Source of the DNA: Enterococcus hulanensis
GTDB taxonomy: Bacteria > Bacillota > Bacilli > Lactobacillales > Enterococcaceae
DNA: 64,000 nucleotides
Assembly: GCF_005405485.1 (NCBI RefSeq)
Contig: NZ_BJED01000016.1
Location: forward strand, 1 to 64,000
Direction: 5' to 3'
Below the pieces are notes generated by a model that did no database searches, had not been told where the DNA came from, and was given only the letters and a program-made list of their open reading frames with translations. Shown piece after piece: positions 3,959 to 29,029 of the stretch (positions are counted from its first letter, which is position 1; every line of letters begins with the position of its first letter). The translations under genes and the position numbers were made by a program.

Positions 3959-4993
3959 ATGGTGGAAAGCATGGAGACAATCCAACAATTGATCGTCTGC
4001 GGCGGATGCAATGCAAAAATCGGACCGGGGAATTTAGGAGAGCTGCTGGCGGATTTACCGAAAGCAACGAATGAAAATTTACTGGTGGGTTTTGATTCGA
4101 CAGATGATGCTGCTGTTATTAAACTACGTGATGATTTAGCGATTATTCAAACTTTAGATTTTTTCCCGACGATGGTAACTGATCCTTATCTTTTTGGCAA
4201 AATCGCGGCTGCGAATGCTTTGAGCGATGTCTATGCGATGGGGGGCGAAGTGCTCTCGGCACTGAATATCGTCGCTTTTCCAGAAGAAAAAGACTTAAAT
4301 ATATTAAAAGAAATTTTACGCGGCGGTGCGGAGAAGGTTCAAGAGGCAGGGGCTATCTTAGCTGGCGGGCACTCGATCCATGACCAGTCGGTGAAATACG
4401 GCTTGTCCGTTACCGGCACGATTGATCCAACTAAGATTTATCAAAATAATACTTGTCAATTAGGGGATCATTTGATTTTGACGAAGCCGCTTGGTGTAAG
4501 CATCATTACGGTGGGCTATAGTGCGGAAGAAATCAGCGAAGAGGCATTTGTGAAAGCAACCACGAGCATGGAAACCCTAAATAAATATGCGATGGATATT
4601 ATTCGCAAATACCAAATTAACAGCTGTACGGATGTGACTGGTTTTGGCTTGGCAGGGCATTTGCATGAAATGATGAATGACAAATTCAGCGCTGAAATTC
4701 ATTCAAAAGACCTGCCTTATTTTGAAGAGGCATATCAGGGTGCGAAGGAATTTATCCTCACTGCGGGCGGTCAGCGAAATCGGAACTATATGGAAGAGAA
4801 GATGGATTTCCAAATCAATGATTTCGGGATCGAGGAATTACTATTTGATCCGCAAACGTCTGGCGGGCTGCTGGTCAGTGTGCCAGAGGATGAAGTAGCG
4901 GCTTTGCTGGAGGAATTACAGGCTGCGAATATTCCTGCAAAGGATTTTGGGGTAGTCGTTGAAAAACAAGAAAAAGAATTGATTGTTTACTAG
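3959..4993 (+). CDS. selD: Selenide, water dikinase (selenophosphate synthetase)
   Basis: Makes selenophosphate from selenide and ATP, the selenium donor for Sec-tRNA formation, tRNA selenouridine and selenium cofactors. The 344-residue protein matches the family in length. The N-terminus carries CGGC (Cys14 and Cys17), the position of the catalytic Cys (or Sec) in this family, so this copy is the cysteine form. The Gly-rich GGHSIHD segment and the C-terminal DPQTSGGLL motif are typical of SelD/AIR-synthase-like proteins. ATG at 3959 has GAGGA 8 nt upstream; ATG at 3971 is a possible alternative. It is the first gene of a tight operon with yedF, DUF3343, selB, a desulfurase and selA. Confidence 0.96.
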   Translation: MVESMETIQQLIVCGGCNAKIGPGNLGELLADLPKATNENLLVGFDSTDDAAVIKLRDDLAIIQTLDFFPTMVTDPYLFGKIAAANALSDVYAMGGEVLSALNIVAFPEEKDLNILKEILRGGAEKVQEAGAILAGGHSIHDQSVKYGLSVTGTIDPTKIYQNNTCQLGDHLILTKPLGVSIITVGYSAEEISEEAFVKATTSMETLNKYAMDIIRKYQINSCTDVTGFGLAGHLHEMMNDKFSAEIHSKDLPYFEEAYQGAKEFILTAGGQRNRNYMEEKMDFQINDFGIEELLFDPQTSGGLLVSVPEDEVAALLEELQAANIPAKDFGVVVEKQEKELIVY

Positions 4994-5967: not shown

Positions 5968-7857
5968 ATGGCAAATATTGTAATTGGAACGGCAGGGCAT
6001 ATTGACCACGGAAAAACAACGCTGATCAAAGCTTTGACCGGGATCGAAACGGATACAACAAGCGAAGAAAAGAAACGTGGGATGTCGATCAATTTAGGTT
6101 TTGCTTATTTGGATCTGCCAAACAAAAAACGGGTCGGTATCGTGGATGTGCCGGGGCACGAAAAATTCATCAAAAACATGGTCGCTGGGCTGCCGGGGAT
6201 CAATTTAGTCCTGCTGGTGATCGATGCAGCAGAAGGGATCATGCCGCAAACGAAAGAGCATATCGATATTTTGACCTTGTTAGGTATTCGGGATTTCCTG
6301 ATTGTCTTGACGAAGGTGGATACGGTCGATCCTGATTTGAAAGAGTTGGTGATTGAGGATATTCGCGAACAATTAGCAGATACTCCATTGGCGGATGCTG
6401 ATTTGATCGAAACGGATGCGGTAACTGGAACGGGGATCAAGGAATTGCTGGAAAAAATCCAAGAGCATTCGGAAGAGGTGCAGGAGCGTTCAGGCAGCGG
6501 ATCGGCCCGTCTGAATGTGGACCGTGTGTTTAGTGTCAAAGGTTTTGGTACGGTTGTGACGGGAACATTATTAGATGGTTCGATCAATGCAGGCGATGAT
6601 CTGTATCTCTATCCGAGTCAGAAAAAGACGCGGGTGCGTAATATCCAAGTGCATGAAACGGATGTGAAAAATGCGCAGCCGGGACAGCGAACAGCGCTGA
6701 ATTTGGCGAATATCGCGACCGATGAGATTCAGCGGGGCGATGTGTTATCTGTGTCAGAAAAGCTGGAAGATACGTGGATGCTGGATGTAAAGGTTACCTG
6801 CTTGCCTGAAGTCGAAGGCGGAATTGGTCTATGGGATCGGGTGCGGCTATTGATCGGTACCCGAGAAGTGATGGCGCGGACAGTTCCCTTGGGGGTGGAC
6901 TGGATCGGACCGGGCGAGGATGGCTTCTTACAGCTTCGTTTAGAAGAACAAGTCGCGGTTAAAGAGCGTGATCGCTTTATTTTGCGCTCCTATTCACCGA
7001 TGTATACGATCGCAGGCGGCGAGGTTCTGGATGCGGCGCCGCATAAACATCGCCGCTTCAAAATGGAGATTCTGGAAAGCTTAAAGGCGAAAGAAGAAGG
7101 CAGTTTAGACGAATTGATCGCAGATTTCATGGTCAATAAGAAGCAGCCGTTCACTAAGGAAAAGGAATTGCAGGAATACTTAGGGGGTGATCTGGAAGAA
7201 TTGCGGCCGATTTTAACCGAAATGGTCGAAGAGGGCCGCGTACTGGAAACCAAAGTCGGCTATTTGGCTCAAGCAAGCTATCAAAAATTGGTAGATCGCT
7301 CTACTGAGATTTTGGCCGCTTATCATAAGCAATACCGTCTGCGTTTTGGGATGCCTTTAGAAGAATTCCGCTCACGGATGCGGAGCGTCTTAGCTGAAAA
7401 AGAAATTTCAGCTCTGATCGGATTAATGAAGGAAGAATTGGTCAAAGAGGCGAATGACAAAATAGCGTTAGCCGATTTTGAGGTTACCTTCAATAAATAC
7501 CAGCAGGCCGCAAAAGAAAAAATCGAAAAGGCGTTAGCAAAAAATGGCTATACACCAGTCAAAAAAGAAGAATTGTATGATCTGGATAAAAACGCAGAAG
7601 AAGTGTTAGAAGCGTTGAATGGCGAGTCGGTGGTCTTCTTGACCCATGAATATGTGCTGCTAGGAAAAGTATTCGATCAAGCCGTCAAAGAAAGTCAAAA
7701 ATATATTGCAGAGCATGAACAGATGACCTTGGGAGATTTCCGTGACTTTACGAACTCCAGCCGCAAATCGTCGATGTTGATTCTGGAATATATGGATAAG
7801 CAGGAAATCACGAAACGAGTGGAAAATTATCGGATCTTAGGAGAGAAGGGAAAATAA
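5968..7857 (+). CDS. selB: Selenocysteine-specific elongation factor SelB
   Basis: GTPase that brings Sec-tRNA(Sec) to the ribosome at UGA codons next to a SECIS hairpin. The N-terminal third is an EF-Tu-like G domain with GHIDHGKT (residues 9-16), DVPGHE and TKVD. Translation-factor beta-barrel domains follow, and from about residue 370 come winged-helix repeats that bind the SECIS element in known SelB proteins. Length (629 residues) matches family members. The gene lies between DUF3343 (4 bp) and the desulfurase gene, which starts directly after its stop. Its presence means true UGA recoding rather than only selenium use in cofactors. Confidence 0.96.
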
Positions 7858-8982
7858 ATGGGCATTTATTTGGATAATGCCGCCACGACGGCTCAAAAGC
7901 CTGCGGTTGTGGCAGAAGCTGTGACGCAAATTTTGACGGGCGAATATGGAAATCCTTCTCGCGGCGCCCATGGTTACTCGTTGGCGGGCTTTCGTGTGGC
8001 CGAAAAGGCGCGCAATCAGGTGAAGGAGTTGTTTAACGCTGATCAGCGCTACGAGGTTGCTTTTACCAATAATGCGACGGTCTCGTTGAATGAAGTTTTG
8101 AAGGGTTTGATCCATGCGGGGGATCATGTGCTTACGACTTCTTGGGAACACAATTCGGTGCTGCGGCCGTTGTATCAGTTAGAAGCGCAAGGTGCCAGCT
8201 TCGATGTTGTTTCCAGCGAGGCGGTGACGGGTCGTTTGAATTATCAAGAATTTGCTGAAAAAGTTCGACCTGAAACGAAGGCGGTGGTCTGCAATCACGC
8301 CAGCAATGTGACAGGAAATCTGTTAGACCTTGAATGGGTCAAGAATTTCTGCGCGGAACAAGAGCTTTATCTGATTATTGATGCTTCGCAAACGGCGGGC
8401 GTCATACCGATCGATCTCAGTGACGGAAAAATCGCGGCGTTGTGCTTTACGGGGCACAAATCGTTATACGGACCACAAGGGACTGGCGGCGTTTGTCTAT
8501 TGAAGGATTTGCCAGTCGAGCCGGTGATCACTGGCGGCGATGGGATGCAGTCATTTTCAAAGGTGCAGCCGAAGAATCTGCCAACCTTGTTAGAAGCTGG
8601 CACCTTGAACATTCCCGGGATCGCAGGTTTAAGTGCCAGCATCCAGTGGCTGATGGAAAAAGAGCCTGCGGAAAAATTAGGCACTTACTTCTATCAAGAG
8701 CTGCAAAAAATCGCGGGCGTGACGATCTATGGAGATTTCACGAATCCTCGGGTCGATGTTTTTTCAATTAATATCAAAGACGCGGAATCGGCGATCGTCA
8801 GTGATGTGCTGTGGGAAGAATATCAGGTTGCGACGCGTCCGGGGTATCATTGTGCGCCTTTGATGCACGAGGCGTTAGGGACGGCGGATCGCGGAACGGT
8901 TCGTTTGTCATTTTCAAGTTTTACCACTAAGGCTGAGGTCGATACAGTCTTAGCCGCATTACAAAATCTGGCGTTACGCTAA
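7858..8982 (+). CDS. EF2568-type cysteine desulfurase / selenocysteine lyase-like protein
   Basis: PLP-dependent class V aminotransferase-fold enzyme expected to release sulfur from cysteine or selenium from selenocysteine as an enzyme-bound persulfide/selenide. Seen: LDNAATT at the N-terminus, the PLP lysine in FTGHKSLYGPQG, and the catalytic Cys in the GYHCAPLMHEALGT segment. Length is 374 residues. The family was named after the E. faecalis gene that sits beside selD, and the operon position between selB and selA supports a role in feeding selenium to SelD. Whether it prefers Cys or Sec cannot be read from the sequence. No intergenic spacing from selB. Confidence 0.9.
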   Translation: MGIYLDNAATTAQKPAVVAEAVTQILTGEYGNPSRGAHGYSLAGFRVAEKARNQVKELFNADQRYEVAFTNNATVSLNEVLKGLIHAGDHVLTTSWEHNSVLRPLYQLEAQGASFDVVSSEAVTGRLNYQEFAEKVRPETKAVVCNHASNVTGNLLDLEWVKNFCAEQELYLIIDASQTAGVIPIDLSDGKIAALCFTGHKSLYGPQGTGGVCLLKDLPVEPVITGGDGMQSFSKVQPKNLPTLLEAGTLNIPGIAGLSASIQWLMEKEPAEKLGTYFYQELQKIAGVTIYGDFTNPRVDVFSINIKDAESAIVSDVLWEEYQVATRPGYHCAPLMHEALGTADRGTVRLSFSSFTTKAEVDTVLAALQNLALR

Positions 8983-8997
8983 GAAAGCAGGTGGCCT

Positions 8998-10374
8998 ATG
9001 TCAAAAGAGATTCAAAATATTTTAGCAAGTTTGCCTTCCGTGGATGTCTTATTGAAACAGATCGACCCGATTTATCCTCACGGAAAGGCCAAAGAAGCGA
9101 CTCAGCAGGTTGTTGCGAGTCTACGCGAAGCGGTGGTTGACGGCACCCGAAAAACCGTCATCGATCAAAAAGAGGTTGTGGCAATGATCCACAAGCAGCT
9201 GGAAGAAAAGCAATTTTCACTTCGGCGAGTGATCAATGGAACAGGTACCGTGATTCATACGAACTTGGGGCGCTCATCATTAAGCGCGAAAACACAGGAG
9301 CAGCTGTTAGCGACCAGTTTCCATTATTCTAACTTGGAGTTTGATCTGGAAAGCGGCAAGCGCGGTTCGCGTTACAGCCATTTAGTATCGATCGTGAAGA
9401 AGCTTACAGGTGCCGAAGATGTGCTGGTGGTGAATAATAATGCGGCGGCAGTGCTTTTGGTCTTGAGTACCTTGACGCAGGAAAAAGAAGTGCTGGTTTC
9501 ACGCGGCGAATTAGTGGAGATTGGCGGTGCCTTCCGAATCCCCGATGTGATCACATCAAGCGGCGGCACGATCGTCGAAGTCGGAACGACCAACAAGACA
9601 CATTTAGCCGATTATGAAAAAGCGTTGACGGAAGAGACTGGTGCAGTCTTAAAAGTTCATACTAGCAACTATCGGATCGTTGGCTTTACCGAAAGTCCAG
9701 CGCTGGAGGATTTAGCAGAATTGGCGCATCAGAATGATTTGCCCCTGATCAATGATTTAGGCAGCGGATTGTTATTAGATATGCGGCCCTTTGGTTTGCC
9801 TTATGAGCCGACCGTAAAAGAAGTGCTGGATCAAGGCTGCGATATCGTGACCTTCAGCGGCGACAAGCTATTAGGCGGACCGCAGGCAGGGATCATCGTC
9901 GGTAAAAAAGAATACATTGAAAAGATGAAGAAAAATCAATTATTGCGGGCATTGCGGATCGATAAGATGACCTTGAGCGCGCTGGAAGCGACATTATCGT
10001 TGTATCTTGATGAAAAGGAAGCCTTGAAATCCGTGCCGACGTTGCAAATGATTGGATTGAGTGAAGAGGATTGTCTAGGTAAAGCGGCCGAGCTTGCGGC
10101 GATGCTGCAGCGGATCACAGAATTAAGTGTGAAGATCGAAAAAGACAGCAGCAAAATTGGCGGCGGCTCTTATCCGGAGCATTTATTGCCAACGTATGCT
10201 GTTGTGTTAAGCAGCGAGCGTTTTACCGCCGATGATTTGCAGGAAAAACTGCGCTTAGCGGCGACACCAATTGTCACAAGGGTAAAAAATGACTGCAACT
10301 TCTTAGATTTGCGAACGATCGCAGTAGAGGAATTTTCGCTGATTCAAGAAAGCCTGCAGGAGATTTTTAAATAG
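8998..10374 (+). CDS. selA: L-seryl-tRNA(Sec) selenium transferase
   Basis: Converts Ser-tRNA(Sec) to Sec-tRNA(Sec) with selenophosphate; PLP enzyme that works as a large ring in known bacteria. The 458-residue protein carries NGTGTVIHTNLGRS near residue 80 and the PLP-lysine motif SGDKLLGGPQAG near residue 300, both diagnostic of SelA. An AGGTGG ribosome-binding site precedes the ATG, 15 bp after the desulfurase gene. Together with selB, selD and the tRNA-Sec at 17882 it completes the bacterial Sec pathway. Confidence 0.96.
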   Translation: MSKEIQNILASLPSVDVLLKQIDPIYPHGKAKEATQQVVASLREAVVDGTRKTVIDQKEVVAMIHKQLEEKQFSLRRVINGTGTVIHTNLGRSSLSAKTQEQLLATSFHYSNLEFDLESGKRGSRYSHLVSIVKKLTGAEDVLVVNNNAAAVLLVLSTLTQEKEVLVSRGELVEIGGAFRIPDVITSSGGTIVEVGTTNKTHLADYEKALTEETGAVLKVHTSNYRIVGFTESPALEDLAELAHQNDLPLINDLGSGLLLDMRPFGLPYEPTVKEVLDQGCDIVTFSGDKLLGGPQAGIIVGKKEYIEKMKKNQLLRALRIDKMTLSALEATLSLYLDEKEALKSVPTLQMIGLSEEDCLGKAAELAAMLQRITELSVKIEKDSSKIGGGSYPEHLLPTYAVVLSSERFTADDLQEKLRLAATPIVTRVKNDCNFLDLRTIAVEEFSLIQESLQEIFK

Positions 10375-17881: not shown

Positions 17882-17978
17882 GGGAGTGGATGGGTTCTGG
17901 TGTTCCCTCTGGTCTTCAAAACCAGTATGAGGAGTTAGGAGCTTCTTGGGTGGGTTCGATTCCCACACATTCCCGCCA
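17882..17978 (+). tRNA. selC: tRNA-Sec (anticodon UCA, reads UGA)
   Basis: 97 nt including an encoded CCA, far longer than ordinary tRNAs because of the long acceptor and variable arms typical of tRNA-Sec. The anticodon arm is CTGGT-CTTCAAA-ACCAG, giving UCA. The T arm is GTGGG-TTCGATT-CCCAC. The acceptor starts GGGAGTG, pairing with CATTCCC (one G-U), with discriminator G. It is charged with Ser by SerRS, then converted by SelA and delivered by SelB, both encoded 8-12 kb upstream. It stands alone with its own promoter and terminator. Its 3' end appears a second time at 17049. Confidence 0.95.
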
Positions 17979-19230: not shown

Positions 19231-20499
19231 TTATGAACTCTTTTTCTTAATTTTTCCTAGCTCGTCTTCGAGTGGAATAATGAAAAGTCGTTTTTCAAGG
19301 AGAAGTTTGTGTAGTAAGTTTTTTCTATGATAAGAATTATCTAAGCTTCTGGAATAATATGTCAACAAATGAAGTACTTTTTTTACCATATCCTCCCTTG
19401 AGGATGAATTAAGATTTGCATAATAGAAATAAAGCTTGATTGAAGAATCATACAAGCTATAGTGATCAAAAATAGCTTGAAAATACGAGTAATCTAAAAG
19501 ACTCAAAGAGTGACCAAAAAAGACAACTTTTGAAATAGCAGATTCCAATTGAAAGGCGTGTACTTCCGAAGAAAAAGAGCCGATCAATTGTCTATATGTC
19601 TTTGAAAAACGATAAAAATCATCTAGTTGCTCTTTGTCAACAGAATCAAAACCAAAAACCACATCCTGTTTTTCTAAAGATCCATGAACATTAATCGTCA
19701 TTTTCTTAACTTGATCCCAAAATCGCTTGTTGTCTTCTACCCTTGATCCATTTAGTTCTTTTTGTCTAGGATAGCTATTATAGGATAAGGTCGAGTTACC
19801 AATTGGGTCTGTATAATTAAACGAAAGAATCTTATCTGAAAAAATGCCTCCACTAAAGTTTGTCTCTTTACTTTCAGTTAAAAGTTGAAGCAATAATTCT
19901 CGACATTCGGGATGGTAGCTTGATTTATTCTTGACTAACTTTTCCAGATACTCAGAAAAGGATTTTTCTAGTATAAGCAGCTCGTGTTTTAAGAAATCCA
20001 CAGGATCCTTAAAATCACTATATCTATTTTCTGGAAATAAACCTAAGAATATAGATAAAAGCATCTTGCCTGACGAAGATAAATAAGATCTATCAGTATC
20101 AAACATTTTTTTATACGTGAATTCTGAGTTTTCTGTTTCACTGAAGAAATCTTTTATTCTGTTCTCAATATCATTCCATTCATCAGGCAGTTTATCTATT
20201 GAATAATAAAAGAGCAAATCCCAAAAACTTAGCTTATCAGAGAAGTCTTCTGGTGTTTTTATAGAGGTTGAAGGAGAAAATTTATTTTTAACACTCTCTC
20301 TATCGTATGGAAAAGATAAGTGATTGAAGAATTCTGGATTTTCAAATTCGCCACTGATTCTGAATTCGTAGTTCTCTTTTATTTCCTTTAGGAAGTTCCT
20401 TGTTTCATCGGGTAAATGATGAGTAAAAAAGTTTTCATACGTGCTATCTAGCCCGATGTATCTATCAAAACCATTGCCAATTATCAATAAAGTACTCAT
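19231..20499 (-). CDS. abiH: AbiH family abortive-infection (anti-phage) protein
   Basis: 422-residue cytoplasmic protein. The N-terminus LLIIGNGFDRYIGLDSTYENF is the AbiH hallmark (GNGFD, then a Tyr/Phe segment), and the later NVHGSL and FFGHSLSLLDYSYF also fit the family. AbiH was first described on lactococcal plasmids as blocking phage growth; its mechanism is not settled. The gene is AT-richer than the surroundings, on the opposite strand to everything nearby, and sits exactly between two fragments of phage DNA (HNH and terminase small subunit). It therefore looks like cargo inserted in a prophage late region. No partner gene is apparent, so it is probably a single-gene system. Confidence 0.85.
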   Translation of the reverse strand: MSTLLIIGNGFDRYIGLDSTYENFFTHHLPDETRNFLKEIKENYEFRISGEFENPEFFNHLSFPYDRESVKNKFSPSTSIKTPEDFSDKLSFWDLLFYYSIDKLPDEWNDIENRIKDFFSETENSEFTYKKMFDTDRSYLSSSGKMLLSIFLGLFPENRYSDFKDPVDFLKHELLILEKSFSEYLEKLVKNKSSYHPECRELLLQLLTESKETNFSGGIFSDKILSFNYTDPIGNSTLSYNSYPRQKELNGSRVEDNKRFWDQVKKMTINVHGSLEKQDVVFGFDSVDKEQLDDFYRFSKTYRQLIGSFSSEVHAFQLESAISKVVFFGHSLSLLDYSYFQAIFDHYSLYDSSIKLYFYYANLNSSSREDMVKKVLHLLTYYSRSLDNSYHRKNLLHKLLLEKRLFIIPLEDELGKIKKKSS

Positions 20500-24420: not shown

Positions 24421-24449
24421 TTGACATTTAAATTCATCTCACGTAATAT
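24421..24449 (+). promoter_or_regulatory. Promoter of the T-box operon
   Basis: Consensus TTGACA and TAATAT separated by 17 bp, with the expected transcript start just before stem I of the T-box. Confidence 0.75.
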
Positions 24450-24473
24450 TGCTTTTGAATTAAAATATAATTA

Positions 24474-24752
24474 AGCTACGATAAGAAGAGTAGCGATGTA
24501 CGATTTCCAGAGAGTCTCTGTTTGGTGAAAAGAGATAGTCAAGCATTGTGAAAATGGTCTTTGAGCGTTAGTTATCGAGGGAGAAATCTTTAGATACTAC
24601 GGGTTCACCCGTTATAGTGATAGGCTATCGAAATTTTTCCGTAGCCGATAAAGCGACTTGTTTAAAAGCAAGTAATGAAGGTGGTACCGCGATAAGGTAT
24701 TTTTATCGTCCTTGATTTGTATTCTGAATACAGATCAAGGACGATTTTTTTT
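24474..24752 (+). promoter_or_regulatory. T-box leader, probable specifier AUG (tRNA-Met)
   Basis: The diagnostic T-box sequence AAGGTGGTACCGCG is at 24678-24691, followed by a strong terminator (stem 24707-24743 and eight T). The stem I base pairs CGATAA (24479-24484) with TTATCG (24572-24577), and an AGAG-type distal loop is visible. In the specifier region GUGAAAAUGGUCUUUGAG, aligning with the usual GAA-codon-purine pattern gives AUG at 24554-24556. The UGGU of the T-box fits a tRNA with discriminator A, as tRNA-Met has. Uncharged tRNA would switch on the three genes downstream. The T-box call is firm; the amino acid is a reading of the specifier by eye. Confidence 0.88.
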
Positions 24753-24779
24753 GTTTTTAATTATAAAGGAGGAAAAGAA

Positions 24780-26000
24780 ATGAGTTATGAGAAGAGAGTC
24801 AATGGAGCAACAATTGCTGTTTTAGGAGGCGGTGCAGCGGCAAAGGCGATCGCAGCCGATTGTGTTTTAGGCGGAAATAAAGTCAACATTTGTGATTTGC
24901 CGGATTTTGCAGAAACGACGCTGGAAAATGTCGAACGTACTGGGATACTGCTTACAGGAAATCAAAACAACAAGTATGGATTTAAGCGTTCCGGCCAAGC
25001 GGTGCTGAATAAGATCACGACGGATGTAAAGGAATGTGTCGCTGGCTGTAAGCTGGTTATCGTTGCGGTTCCGTCGATCGCTCACGATGCTTTTTTTGAA
25101 GAGCTGGTTCCTGCTTTAGAAGATAATATGATCGTCCATATTATTCCAGATAATTTTGGTTCGTTAAAGCTGCGGAAAAAAATGCGGGAAAGCAATTGTA
25201 CTAAATCGGTGATCATTGGCGGCTGGTCCAGTGCCCCATATGGAGCAAGAGTGGTTAAGGAAGGCGGAGTTTTAACTCCGGAAGTCAGCTTGATGTATCG
25301 AGCAATTACATTGCGGGGGGCGGCTTTACCATCGACAGATCAAGAAGTCTTTTTACAAAGTACACAAGAGCTGGGCTGTTTTGATGCTATCACAAATGGC
25401 GACGGACCAACGGGCGGGAATACGGTTTTAGATATCGGCTTCAGCAATGTGAACCCTGTTTTGCATTGTCCGGGAACGATTTTAGGAGTGGGAGTCATGG
25501 AAAATTGGGGCCGAGTTTTCGGCGGGAATGACAAAAGCACTTATTCGATTTATTCTCACGCCTATTGCGAATCAATTTCAGAAGTTCAGTATGCTTTTTA
25601 TTTGGAAGAAGTGGCTTTGGCAGAGGCGATCGGTGTCGATCTTCAACGTTTTCCTAAGAAAAATTTCCTATCCAGGACTAGTATTTTGGGGCCGGAATAC
25701 ATGGGAGATGAGTGTATCGTGCCTTTTGACGAACAGTTTGAGATGGCTATCGGAACAGGTCCATTTAGTATTCATGATCGCTATATCACCGAGGATATAC
25801 CTGTCGGCTGCCACATCTATCATGAGTTAGGGAAAAAATACGGAGTTGAAACAAAAGTGATCGACAGTATGATCACGCTGGCTTCTGTTATGACAGGACG
25901 TGATTTCTTAAAAGAAGGCTTGACCTTGGAAGATTTAGGAATTGGAAGTTTAGATCAAAATGCGCTGCTGGATTATTTAAATACGGGAGTGATCGAGTAA
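24780..26000 (+). CDS. Octopine/nopaline (opine) dehydrogenase family protein
   Basis: 406-residue NAD(P)-dependent enzyme of the family that reductively joins an amino acid to a keto acid, or does the reverse. The N-terminal Rossmann motif is IAVLGGGAAAKAIAADC. The C-terminal half has the helical octopine-DH domain, with conserved NPVLHCPGTILG and the following His region. ATG 24780 has AAAGGAGG 7 nt upstream; the longer frame overlaps the terminator of the leader and is not used. The stop codon overlaps the start of the next gene (TAATG). Placed under an amino-acid-sensing T-box, it may make or break an opine-like conjugate. Substrates are unknown. Confidence 0.82.
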   Translation: MSYEKRVNGATIAVLGGGAAAKAIAADCVLGGNKVNICDLPDFAETTLENVERTGILLTGNQNNKYGFKRSGQAVLNKITTDVKECVAGCKLVIVAVPSIAHDAFFEELVPALEDNMIVHIIPDNFGSLKLRKKMRESNCTKSVIIGGWSSAPYGARVVKEGGVLTPEVSLMYRAITLRGAALPSTDQEVFLQSTQELGCFDAITNGDGPTGGNTVLDIGFSNVNPVLHCPGTILGVGVMENWGRVFGGNDKSTYSIYSHAYCESISEVQYAFYLEEVALAEAIGVDLQRFPKKNFLSRTSILGPEYMGDECIVPFDEQFEMAIGTGPFSIHDRYITEDIPVGCHIYHELGKKYGVETKVIDSMITLASVMTGRDFLKEGLTLEDLGIGSLDQNALLDYLNTGVIE

Positions 26001-26758
26001 TGAAAAGAGGCAATCTTCAAACAGAAGCGGATTTAGCTGCGACTTTTCAGGTTTCGCCAACAGCTTTTGCGGGGTACGCGATCGGTATTATCGCTGTTGA
26101 TCTAATCTACCCCAAGGTCCCCGGAAATGTAGCAAATGCGACGACCTTTGATTTTCCAGTCCTTTACGAAGTGGTTGATTTTGAGATCGAGCAGCTTTTT
26201 GAAGGAAGCGAACAAATCAAGGAGCAGATTATTAGTGCTGCCAAAAAGCTTGAAAAACAAGGGGTACGGGCAATCGTTGGTGCATGTGGTTACTTTGGAC
26301 ACTTTCAAGAGGCTGTGGCGGAAGCGGTAGCGATTCCTGTTTTTCTGTCCAGCATCATTCAGGTACCGATTATAAAAATAGGCCTTAAAAAAGAGCAGAA
26401 GATCTTAACCTTAGTGGCTAGTGGGAAAGACATCAACGAAGCTTTTTTCTGTTCATCGGGCGCGGATTTATCGGATTGTACGATTTGCGAGATTGGTGCT
26501 TTGGAAAGTTTTTCCTCGATCCGCTGGGGAAAAACGACATTGGATAATCAGAAATTATCGGCTGATTTAGTTGAAATAGTGCAAAAACAGCTGGCTGAGT
26601 CACCAGAAATCGGCGCGATTTTACTAGAGTGCAGTGATTTACCGCCGTATTCGTATGCCATTCAACAGGCAGCCGGACTGCCGGTCTTCGATTTTAACAG
26701 CTTGATCCATTGGGTATATTATTCGGTCGTTCAAACAAGATATTACGGTCATTTCTAA
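26000..26758 (+). CDS. Aspartate/glutamate racemase superfamily protein
   Basis: 252 residues. The two cysteines expected of Asp/Glu/hydantoin racemases appear in GACGYFGHF (about residue 92) and LLECSDLPPYS (about residue 208), so a cofactor-free two-base mechanism is possible. The active site is in a divergent setting and the substrate cannot be named. Translationally coupled to the opine dehydrogenase gene. A D-amino acid precursor or product for that enzyme is a fair inference; a maleate-isomerase- or hydantoin-racemase-like role is the alternative. Confidence 0.72.
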   Translation: MKRGNLQTEADLAATFQVSPTAFAGYAIGIIAVDLIYPKVPGNVANATTFDFPVLYEVVDFEIEQLFEGSEQIKEQIISAAKKLEKQGVRAIVGACGYFGHFQEAVAEAVAIPVFLSSIIQVPIIKIGLKKEQKILTLVASGKDINEAFFCSSGADLSDCTICEIGALESFSSIRWGKTTLDNQKLSADLVEIVQKQLAESPEIGAILLECSDLPPYSYAIQQAAGLPVFDFNSLIHWVYYSVVQTRYYGHF

Positions 26759-26820
26759 ACCGAACAGAGCTGCTGCAAAAGGCAGAATCAAAAATTTTAA
26801 GAAAAAAGGGGAAAGAATAC

Positions 26821-27648
26821 ATGAAGAGAAAGGCAATCGTTTTTTCGATTTTATTTACGGCAATCTTAGTTTTTGCCGGGTGCACGAAGGCTTCAACCAG
26901 TGATAAAAAGGAGGACACCTTGGTGATCGGCACCTTGACTACGCCTCATGGAGAAATCTTGGAGCATGTAAAACCATTATTGGAAAAGGAGGGTGTCAAA
27001 TTAGAAATCAAGAATTTCGATGATTATATCCTGCCGAACAAAGCATTAGCCGATAAGGACATTGACGCAAACTATTTCCAGCATGTTCCTTTCTTTGAAC
27101 AAGCCGTAAAAGAAAATGGCTACAAATTTGCGGATGCCGGAGCTGTTCATGTCGAACCGATGGGGCTATATTCTAAAAAAATCAACGCCCTTGAAGAACT
27201 AAAAAATGGTGCAACAATCATCACTTCAAATTCTGTTTCTGATTGGGGAAGAATCATTACGATTCTCCAAAATGCTGATTTGGTCAAGGTTAAGGAGGGG
27301 GTTGATCTAGAAACAGCCAACTTTGAAGATATTGAAGAAAATCCGAAGAATCTGACCTTCGAGCATTCTATCGATCCGTCGCTTTTAACTAGCGCATACA
27401 ATAATGAAGAAGGGGATCTGGTGGCGATCAATGCCAATTTCGCCTATCAAGCAAAATTAAACCCAGTCAAAGATGCAATCTTATTAGAAGAAGATAATTC
27501 GCCTTATGGAAACATTATTGCCGTTCGCCAAGAAGACAAAAATGATCCGCGAATTAAGAAATTGACGAAAGTATTGCATGACAAGGACGTCCAAAATTGG
27601 ATATTAGAGAAATGGGACGGTTCTGTAAAACCAGTGGCAGCGGAATAA
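26821..27648 (+). CDS. MetQ/NlpA family lipoprotein, solute-binding protein
   Basis: 275-residue lipoprotein with signal peptide and lipobox FAGC (Cys at about residue 20), then a NlpA/MetQ-type binding domain (LVIGTLTTPHGEILEHVKP and the NYFQHVPFFEQ segment). Family members bind methionine or small amino-acid derivatives for a MetNI-type ABC importer. No ATPase or permease gene accompanies it, so it must use a transporter encoded elsewhere. Same T-box transcript as the two enzymes, 62 bp downstream. Start ATG 26821 is preceded by AAGGGGAAAG; the longer frame is not convincing. Confidence 0.88.
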   Translation: MKRKAIVFSILFTAILVFAGCTKASTSDKKEDTLVIGTLTTPHGEILEHVKPLLEKEGVKLEIKNFDDYILPNKALADKDIDANYFQHVPFFEQAVKENGYKFADAGAVHVEPMGLYSKKINALEELKNGATIITSNSVSDWGRIITILQNADLVKVKEGVDLETANFEDIEENPKNLTFEHSIDPSLLTSAYNNEEGDLVAINANFAYQAKLNPVKDAILLEEDNSPYGNIIAVRQEDKNDPRIKKLTKVLHDKDVQNWILEKWDGSVKPVAAE

Positions 27649-27699
27649 TAGGGCGCCACAAAACGCTTCAGTTTAAACTAATCTAAAACGAAAGAAGCA

Positions 27700-27739
27700 A
27701 GATCGAGTAAAAAATCAAATTTTACTCGATCTTTTTTTT
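27700..27739 (+). terminator. Terminator of the T-box operon
   Basis: Perfect AGATCGAGTAAAA/TTTTACTCGATCT stem with eight T. Confidence 0.93.
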
Positions 27740-28001: not shown

Positions 28002-28030
28002 TTAAAATTGACGGACGGAGGATGAAACGA

Positions 28031-29029
28031 ATGAAGGAAGCAAAATTAGGCCAGAGACAGGTTTTTGGTATGTTGAGAAAGAGCTTGGAAAAACGCGTGA
28101 TTCAGCGTTTTGAGCAGGCTAAAAATGCCGCAGAGATCGTGGAGTTTGCGGTTGCTATCCTTATTCGTGACGCGCTTTGCGTTGGTGATTTTTCATATAT
28201 GTTTCCAGAAGTGATCCGTGAAATTTTCCTGACTGCTGAGCCGAATGATACGCTGCGCCGTCATTGTGTTTACTTTCAAAATTACTTTACTACTAAGGGC
28301 GAGTGGCAGAAAGTCATCGACCATCTATTTAAGAGCGAAAAAGAATTTCGGGCATTTACCAAGGAAACTTGTTTATATAGAGCATTATTAGAGAAAAAGG
28401 CGCGTGAAACGTCTGCAGAATCTGAGTTTCGTTTCGATCTTGTCACGGTTTTTAAGGATGCTAACGGGAAAAGATACACATGGACGCTGCGTGATACGAA
28501 GCAGGTCGCTAAAAATTTAGCGAACGAAACTGCCGAAGTCCTGCAAATTTTGACTACCTTAACGATTTTTCAAGCATCGGGTGTCCGTCGTTTCGCTGAG
28601 TACGTGAAGTTCAAAAGTACAAAATCATGCGTCGATGCCGAGCACGAAGCCGATTCAACAGAACCGATGGAGGAGTCTATTCAGGCATCAATCGTTGAAA
28701 ATAAGCGAGATGTGAAGGCGAATCCGCGTCAAAAACAAGCAGCGCCGACTGCTAAAATTACCGCAGATAACCATCAAAAGACCGTGAATCAGGTGGCTGC
28801 GAGGTCCGAGAAACAAAAAGACGGACCGAAAAATAGAGCGCGGGCAGATTCGAAGGCAAACAGTCTAGCCGCAAAGGCAAACTCTCCGACGAAGGAAGCT
28901 AAGGCACCGCCGCAAAAATTGGATACCTCCGCTTTGCGATATGGCAAACCCGCGGAACAAATAGAACAGGCGCATGACGATAAAAAATGGAATAGCCGCG
29001 TAAAGGAATTTTTTGCGAAAATCATGTAG
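28031..29029 (+). CDS. Unknown protein with basic, Ala/Lys-rich low-complexity C-terminal region
   Basis: 332 residues, no family recognised. The first 200 residues are helical, mixed-charge and cytoplasmic-looking, with no signal or membrane segment. Residues 210-310 are low-complexity, rich in Lys, Ala, Gln, Asn and Pro, as in nucleic-acid- or partner-binding tails. The last 25 residues are conserved-looking (KKWNSRVKEFFAKIM). ATG 28022 touches GGAGG, so ATG 28031 is the likely start. Monocistronic, with a cre-like site just upstream. Confidence 0.7.
   Translation: MKEAKLGQRQVFGMLRKSLEKRVIQRFEQAKNAAEIVEFAVAILIRDALCVGDFSYMFPEVIREIFLTAEPNDTLRRHCVYFQNYFTTKGEWQKVIDHLFKSEKEFRAFTKETCLYRALLEKKARETSAESEFRFDLVTVFKDANGKRYTWTLRDTKQVAKNLANETAEVLQILTTLTIFQASGVRRFAEYVKFKSTKSCVDAEHEADSTEPMEESIQASIVENKRDVKANPRQKQAAPTAKITADNHQKTVNQVAARSEKQKDGPKNRARADSKANSLAAKANSPTKEAKAPPQKLDTSALRYGKPAEQIEQAHDDKKWNSRVKEFFAKIM

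Follow-up and report, generated by a model that had tools for sequence, protein, structure and literature searches.

We describe an operon of Enterococcus hulanensis in which genes for an opine dehydrogenase (ODH), a protein of the Asp/Glu-racemase superfamily (RAC) and a MetQ/NlpA-type lipoprotein stand behind a T-box leader with a methionine specifier. The operon lies in a stretch of 64,000 nucleotides (positions 1 to 64,000 of contig NZ_BJED01000016.1, assembly GCF_005405485.1; hereafter the window), whose coordinates are used throughout unless another locus is named. Sequence comparisons support methionine control of these genes, a recurrent pairing of ODH with RAC, a repeated association with methionine transport, and intact catalytic residues. 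Our leading interpretation, which we hold tentatively, is that this is a salvage operon that would recover methionine from a methionine derivative during methionine starvation; the substrate, reaction direction and stereochemistry of such a salvage are what we infer. The features of the operon are as follows.

24421..24449, + strand: sigma-70-type promoter, TTGACA-17-TAATAT (consensus scan, 10/12)
24469..24716, + strand: T-box leader (RF00230, 116.7 bits, full-length model match)
24554..24556, + strand: specifier AUG, methionine (covariance-model alignment, leaders of the same genome, related leaders)
24682..24685, + strand: UGGU, which would pair with the tRNA-Met 3′ end ACCA (sequence; discriminator A in tRNA genes)
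24705..24745, + strand: attenuator terminator, 19 pairs and a T run (consensus scan)
24780..26000, + strand: ODH, 406 aa (PF02317, 1.4e-27; 1bg6, E-value 5e-16)
26000..26758, + strand: RAC, PRK07475 type, 252 aa (PF01177, 2.9e-8; NF005679, 243 bits)
26821..27648, + strand: MetQ/NlpA-type lipoprotein (PF03180, 8.9e-79, 264 bits)
27699..27733, + strand: operon-end terminator (consensus scan)

The ODH and RAC genes overlap by one base. An earlier note on the window, made from its letters alone, had placed an opine dehydrogenase, a racemase-like protein and an NlpA/MetQ protein in one transcript. The profile matches uphold the identities of the genes, and the three probably do form a single transcript, but a promoter-like match within the RAC gene (26694-26722, consensus scan) could give metQ a transcript of its own as well. 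ODH is 92-94% identical to its counterparts in E. avium, E. raffinosus and Enterococcus sp. MJM16, which places the genome in the avium group of Enterococcus. All three genes show purifying selection against their avium-group orthologues, with dN/dS values of 0.02-0.05 that could be computed for 8 of 11 pairs and are rough, as dS ranges from 1.3 to 3.1.

A T-box leader with a methionine specifier

The earlier note had called the leader a canonical T-box with an AUG specifier and a UGGU end, and each element of this description holds. A covariance-model search places the match to RF00230 well above the gathering score (116.7 bits against 93, E-value 3.7e-25), with the specifier in the context GAA-A-AUG-G. 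Among the 25 T-box matches of the genome, 18 of them above the gathering score, eight have GAA-N-ATG, so that the specifier has the same position in all eight methionine leaders (specifiers were read by motif in 20 of the 25 and by eye in the other five, none of which has GAA-N-ATG). Reading the same GAA-N-NNN position gives GTA for valS, TCC for serS, whose leader also gave other candidate specifier matches, and TTC for pheS. The offset is variable across the genome, with trpE, lysS and proS specifiers at GAA-NNN and that of argS two bases past the motif; the motif reading gave no match for the hisS and alaS leaders, and doubtful matches for ileS and a thrS-like gene.

Since the offset is not universal, an AAU (Asn) specifier at offset zero is a formal alternative, which we examined and rejected. 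In the eight ODH leaders readable in full (the window, L001, L002, L003, L005, L031, L030 and L046, that of L004 being cut by the contig start), AUG is constant and the end is UGGU, while the preceding base is A, G or T, which speaks against the AAU reading; the specifier of L001 was read by eye, as the pattern had matched an earlier GAACATG. The UGGU end fits discriminator A, as found in all three tRNA genes with anticodon CAT that were read, whereas both tRNA-Asn genes read have G, which again speaks against Asn. Together with the position shared by the other methionine leaders, these observations are our grounds for rejecting the Asn specifier. Judging from its family, the leader would sense methionine, with uncharged tRNA-Met letting transcription pass the attenuator.

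The other seven AUG leaders of the genome precede genes for methionine transport or biosynthesis or genes related to S-adenosylmethionine (SAM). Five of them stand before metQNI, metNIQ, metQ-msrA, a YxjH-type methionine synthase gene and metY-metA, a sixth before patB, which is accompanied by a cystathionine-synthase-type and a LysR gene, and the last before a SAM-hydrolase-type gene followed by ECF-transporter-like genes; the LysR and ECF-transporter names come only from reading the sequences.

The dehydrogenase and racemase genes recur together

When GTDB contigs were scanned for ODH peptide patterns, which favour close relatives, 47 loci emerged; their neighbouring genes were located by tblastn, on the strand of ODH and up to 6 kb from it. 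Several of these loci probably come from the same species as the genus genomes considered below, so the counts are not independent. RAC lies near ODH in 42 of the 47 loci, and in 38 of them within 300 bp. MetQ is found near ODH in 20 loci, a YbdL-like class I aminotransferase in 18, MetN and MetI in 14 each, LysR in 7, MttB in 5 and PatB in 2. Where at least 3.5 kb is available on both sides (26 loci), the counts are 23 for RAC, 14 for MetQ, 11 for MetN and 8 for the aminotransferase. The three-gene set, which the earlier note had proposed to look for in other genomes, thus recurs, although MetQ proves to be an optional member, missing from the operons of the pallens group of Enterococcus and of Secundilactobacillus.

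The usual order in Lachnospiraceae is metN-metI-metQ-ODH-RAC-aminotransferase; some loci add a LysR gene, and in some RAC and the aminotransferase change places. For the one aminotransferase that was tested, that of L010, the nearest solved structure is E. coli YbdL (1.4e-74), which we take to be a methionine aminotransferase. The L010 protein reaches 329 bits against PRK09082, a methionine aminotransferase model whose cut-off is 420; two models for other aminotransferases score it higher, though again not up to their cut-offs.

AUG T-boxes precede the ODH-RAC pair in three genera, namely Enterococcus, Fructobacillus (96.1 bits) and Secundilactobacillus (where 68.5 bits fall short of the gathering score). 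Near the Secundilactobacillus locus (L030), a second T-box with GAA-T-AUG was seen on the opposite strand (4044-4294, -; 70.2 bits).

If unrelated genes had simply come to lie next to one another behind a T-box, the absence of MetQ from some of these operons would be natural, as would the fact that distant ODH relatives mostly lack RAC. The recurrence of the pair in 42 of 47 loci, preceded by AUG T-boxes in three genera, already contradicts such a chance adjacency, which we find barely credible. The neighbouring genes also bear on the identity of the compound. If it were a derivative of another sulfur amino acid, such as a cystathionine or homocysteine opine, a C-S lyase would then lead from it towards homocysteine and methionine. 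PatB-type C-S lyase genes occur in two clusters, both without the aminotransferase, and patB belongs to the genome's own methionine T-box regulon; but two loci of 47 compare with 18 for the YbdL-like aminotransferase, and we judge this route distinctly improbable.

ODH is a rare gene: of 395 genomes in the order three have it, one of them in two pieces, as do 9 of 398 genomes in a sample of the phylum (both counts include the genome studied here); the other eight ODH of the latter are 59-63% identical to that of the window. Five of the loci with distant ODH relatives (L035, L036, L039, L040 and L047) have an MttB-type methyltransferase gene next to ODH, and some of these also have PanB-like and ornithine-cyclodeaminase-like genes, as named by reading.

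The dehydrogenase and its nearest characterised relative

The window ODH matches PF02317 with 97 bits (cut-off 30), the sole match to this family in the genome. Its nearest solved structure is Arthrobacter CENDH (1bg6; Z 36.1, root-mean-square deviation (rmsd) 2.8 over 329 residues, 25% identity in the structural alignment), followed by octopine dehydrogenase (Z 29.9) and, farther off, the metallophore dehydrogenases (Z 23-25); the structure model used has a pLDDT of 76.7, and its confidence is low in parts of the helical domain. H229, D339 and the active-site residue R334 are kept in 29 of 29 rows of relatives, and H229 and D339 are presumably catalytic. We compared nine positions with CENDH, seven of them active-site positions taken from the paper on that enzyme and two the His and Asp that we take to be catalytic, and five are the same in CENDH, the window ODH and all 29 relatives. 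Strong constraint on ODH is indicated by dN/dS values of 0.02-0.03 in three pairs, in which dS is saturated. CENDH reversibly acts on N-(1-carboxyethyl)methionine, a natural opine named methiopine, and L-methionine is reported as its preferred amino partner (PMC6033044, PMC4575208).

The direction of the reaction matters here, for the pair might instead make a secreted opine, a metallophore or another, under methionine shortage. Staphylopine, pseudopaline and yersinopine systems do combine a racemase with an opine dehydrogenase, as the window operon does. The dehydrogenases of these systems belong, however, to another branch than the window ODH, which is closer to CENDH and octopine dehydrogenase, in line with the remark in the earlier note that metallophore systems use other enzyme families. 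The nicotianamine synthase family PF03059, a model whose reach to CntL was not checked, has no match in the genome, methionine import genes accompany ODH in 20 of the 47 loci, and spending scarce methionine on such a product makes little sense. Synthesis of an opine thus appears very unlikely, and metallophore synthesis by this operon is disfavoured.

The racemase-like protein

RAC exceeds the cut-off of NF005679 (243 bits against 231), and its AlphaFold2 model has a confident racemase-superfamily fold (pLDDT 92.6), with Z of about 16 to allantoin and hydantoin racemases (for the allantoin racemase 3qvj, Z 16.4 and rmsd 3.0 over 205 residues). Cysteines C96 and C211, which we assume to be the catalytic pair, are present in 34 of 34 rows.

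In the family, RAC is found in 8 of 105 genomes, seven of which also have ODH. The eighth, G397, is 74% complete and gave no ODH match; in it an AUG T-box leads RAC alone (L174, C8, 6702-7463), with neither ODH nor MetQ alongside. The ODH gene is split into two frames in Limosilactobacillus gorillae (L042), where RAC is intact, and likewise in G048. The leader of L042 gave no T-box at E-values up to 0.05, and resembles a decayed T-box by eye only. RAC standing alone under an AUG T-box and remaining intact beside a split ODH suggest that it is useful without ODH under methionine control, and this points to a RAC substrate close to methionine itself.

The loci of G397 and L042 lend weight to another account, a salvage of D-methionine, in which MetQ and MetNI would import D-methionine, RAC would be a pyridoxal-phosphate (PLP)-independent methionine racemase, and ODH would have a side role or another substrate. 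In addition, the residues with which Neisseria meningitidis MetQ binds D-methionine (PMC6739813) are mostly kept in the operon MetQ. However, the genome with RAC alone is incomplete, as said, and with no more than 300 bp between RAC and ODH in 38 of the 47 loci and ODH under the strong constraint described above, a mere side role for ODH is improbable. We regard this account as unlikely, though a serious alternative.

More distant members of the RAC family can have other companions. Paralogues that are 31-42% identical to RAC may adjoin genes for secondary-amine dehydrogenases of another class: DAO, SoxA-like or 2Fe-2S genes are near 5 of the 17 RAC-family loci viewed, and in 7 of 9 longer regions, which were chosen partly with oxidoreductase neighbours in mind (in L212 these genes lie about 4 kb off on the opposite strand). 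These neighbourhoods point towards opines instead, and fit a family whose members work on what dehydrogenases of the sarcosine, imino-acid or opine type consume or release.

Loci L205-L207 and L209-L212 have PRK07475-type racemase genes that adjoin genes for FAD/2Fe-2S oxidoreductases of the sarcosine or opine oxidase kind.

A MetQ paralogue that accompanies the pair

The genome holds four MetQ and two MetN, all in operons led by AUG T-boxes. As the operon has no MetNI of its own, the earlier note had suggested that its MetQ serves an existing importer, and the two MetN encoded elsewhere under AUG T-boxes agree with this, as does the parallel of the metQ-msrA operon (L100, C7), in which an orphan metQ is followed by msrA behind an AUG T-box. 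The orphan MetQ of that operon would bring methionine sulfoxide to its reductase, and could serve as a model for the same logic in the window operon.

Six of the seven methionine contacts are identical in the operon MetQ, and the seventh, Y103, is F, as in the C4 MetQ; the contacts were taken from N. meningitidis MetQ (PMC6739813) and placed by motif and an alignment with E. coli MetQ. N. meningitidis MetQ binds D-methionine about 10,000-fold more weakly than L-methionine, with the same residues (PMC6739813). The metQ-msrA protein has a pocket H to T change that it shares with the C30 MetQ, so that the change is not specific, and Fructobacillus MetQ has N213 to D. Naming a substrate from the MetQ pocket was considered and dropped, since all contacts but one are kept.

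Among the 20 genomes of the genus, the clade of this paralogue is found only together with ODH. Seven of 20 genus genomes have ODH, and all seven have four MetQ, whereas the 13 without ODH, two of which are less than 80% complete, have one to three each (E-value up to 1e-40). In a maximum-likelihood tree of 30 of the 62 MetQ matches, which takes in all those exceeding 60% identity, the additional MetQ of the ODH genomes form one clade with moderate support (91/97), which is represented in 7 of 7 genomes with ODH and 0 of 13 without. Members of the clade lie inside the ODH operon in the avium group; in three pallens-group genomes they are solitary, behind a cysK-like gene (named by reading) and with an AUG T-box of their own. 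The changes that mark the clade are all in one loop (38T in 7 of 7, 39L in 6 of 7 and 44G in 7 of 7, against 0 of 19 C4-type MetQ).

Outside the genus, the MetQ proteins encoded next to ODH in Fructobacillus and Lachnospiraceae share only 31-38% identity with the operon MetQ, whereas the ODH proteins are 60% (Fructobacillus) and 71-74% (Lachnospiraceae) identical to that of the window. This disparity suggests that MetQ was probably recruited to the pair more than once, although the tree flags these MetQ as long branches and does not settle the matter.

A possible route of methionine salvage

We propose, tentatively, that the parts act together as follows. In methionine shortage, uncharged tRNA-Met would bind the T-box and allow read-through of the attenuator. 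The MetQ paralogue would capture an extracellular methionine derivative and pass it to the MetNI encoded elsewhere. By analogy with its nearest characterised relative, ODH with NAD(P)+ would then oxidise a secondary-amine derivative of methionine to methionine and a 2-oxo acid, the likeliest substrate being an N-carboxyalkyl-methionine such as methiopine. The two-cysteine RAC would invert a stereocentre, most simply converting D-methionine to L-methionine, so that L-methionine results.

Several observations weigh against this interpretation. CENDH is a distant relative, and four of the nine compared positions differ from it (A111 to N, K156 to Y, Y259 to L and Y280 to F). The solitary RAC under a T-box favours a racemase that works without an opine, and the contacts kept in MetQ fit free methionine at least as well as N-substituted methionine. 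When 34 of the 47 loci were scanned with Rfam at the gathering score, only L046 had a T-box, and none had a SAM riboswitch; such a scan does miss weak leaders, as the 68.5 bits of the L030 T-box illustrate. MttB-type genes, rather than methionine genes, adjoin six of eight distant ODH relatives. Finally, in the phylum sample, ODH and RAC coincide in three of the nine ODH genomes (the present one included), and 22 genomes have RAC-family matches but no ODH. The pairing is strong near the window ODH and weak far from it.

With somewhat more reserve than for salvage as such, we suggest that the operon represents a previously undescribed route, in which a PLP-independent racemase of the PRK07475 family, acting as a methionine racemase or an opine epimerase, and an NAD(P)-dependent ODH would convert D-methionine and N-carboxyalkyl-methionine to L-methionine, with a dedicated MetQ and under tRNA-Met control; in Lachnospiraceae the pair would work with metNIQ and a methionine-type aminotransferase.

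In our searches of the open-licence literature we came across no account of an ODH-RAC pair controlled by methionine, although parts of the arrangement have precedents. Methionine T-boxes with an orphan metQ are known in Lactobacillales, for instance metQ1 and metQ2 of L. paracasei (PMC6004538), whose operons resemble that of the window in having an AUG T-box and an NlpA/MetQ without its own MetNI; the main text of that paper contains none of the words racemase, opine and octopine. The main text of PMC2494555, which also treats methionine T-boxes and orphan metQ, likewise lacks racemase, opine and dehydrogenase. CENDH, which acts on methionine opines as we propose for the window ODH, resembles it in fold and in its His, Asp and Arg positions, and differs from it in the low identity and the four altered positions; the portions of the CENDH literature drawn on here mention no T-box or racemase partner. 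The metQ-msrA operon of the same genome again has an AUG T-box and an orphan MetQ, together with an enzyme expected to regenerate methionine from one of its derivatives, but with methionine sulfoxide reductase in place of ODH and RAC, and with the altered pocket residue in its MetQ.

The operon links the PRK07475 racemase family, annotated in NCBIfam as hypothetical protein, and a bacterial branch of ODH to methionine nutrition through a specific tRNA signal. If our interpretation is true, opines or D-methionine would serve gut and lactic acid bacteria as nutrients.

Other features of the window

Just 3′ of the operon, positions 28022-29029 encode a 335-aa protein without a Pfam match (E-value up to 0.01). 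On the other side, positions 19231-20499 (-) encode a protein of 422 aa that matches AbiH weakly (5.6e-4), possibly a phage defence gene. The window also has a tRNA-Sec gene (17882-17974), upstream of which (5968-10374) lie genes that by reading are SelB-like, cysteine-desulfurase-like and SelA-like, and thus selenocysteine machinery in Enterococcus.

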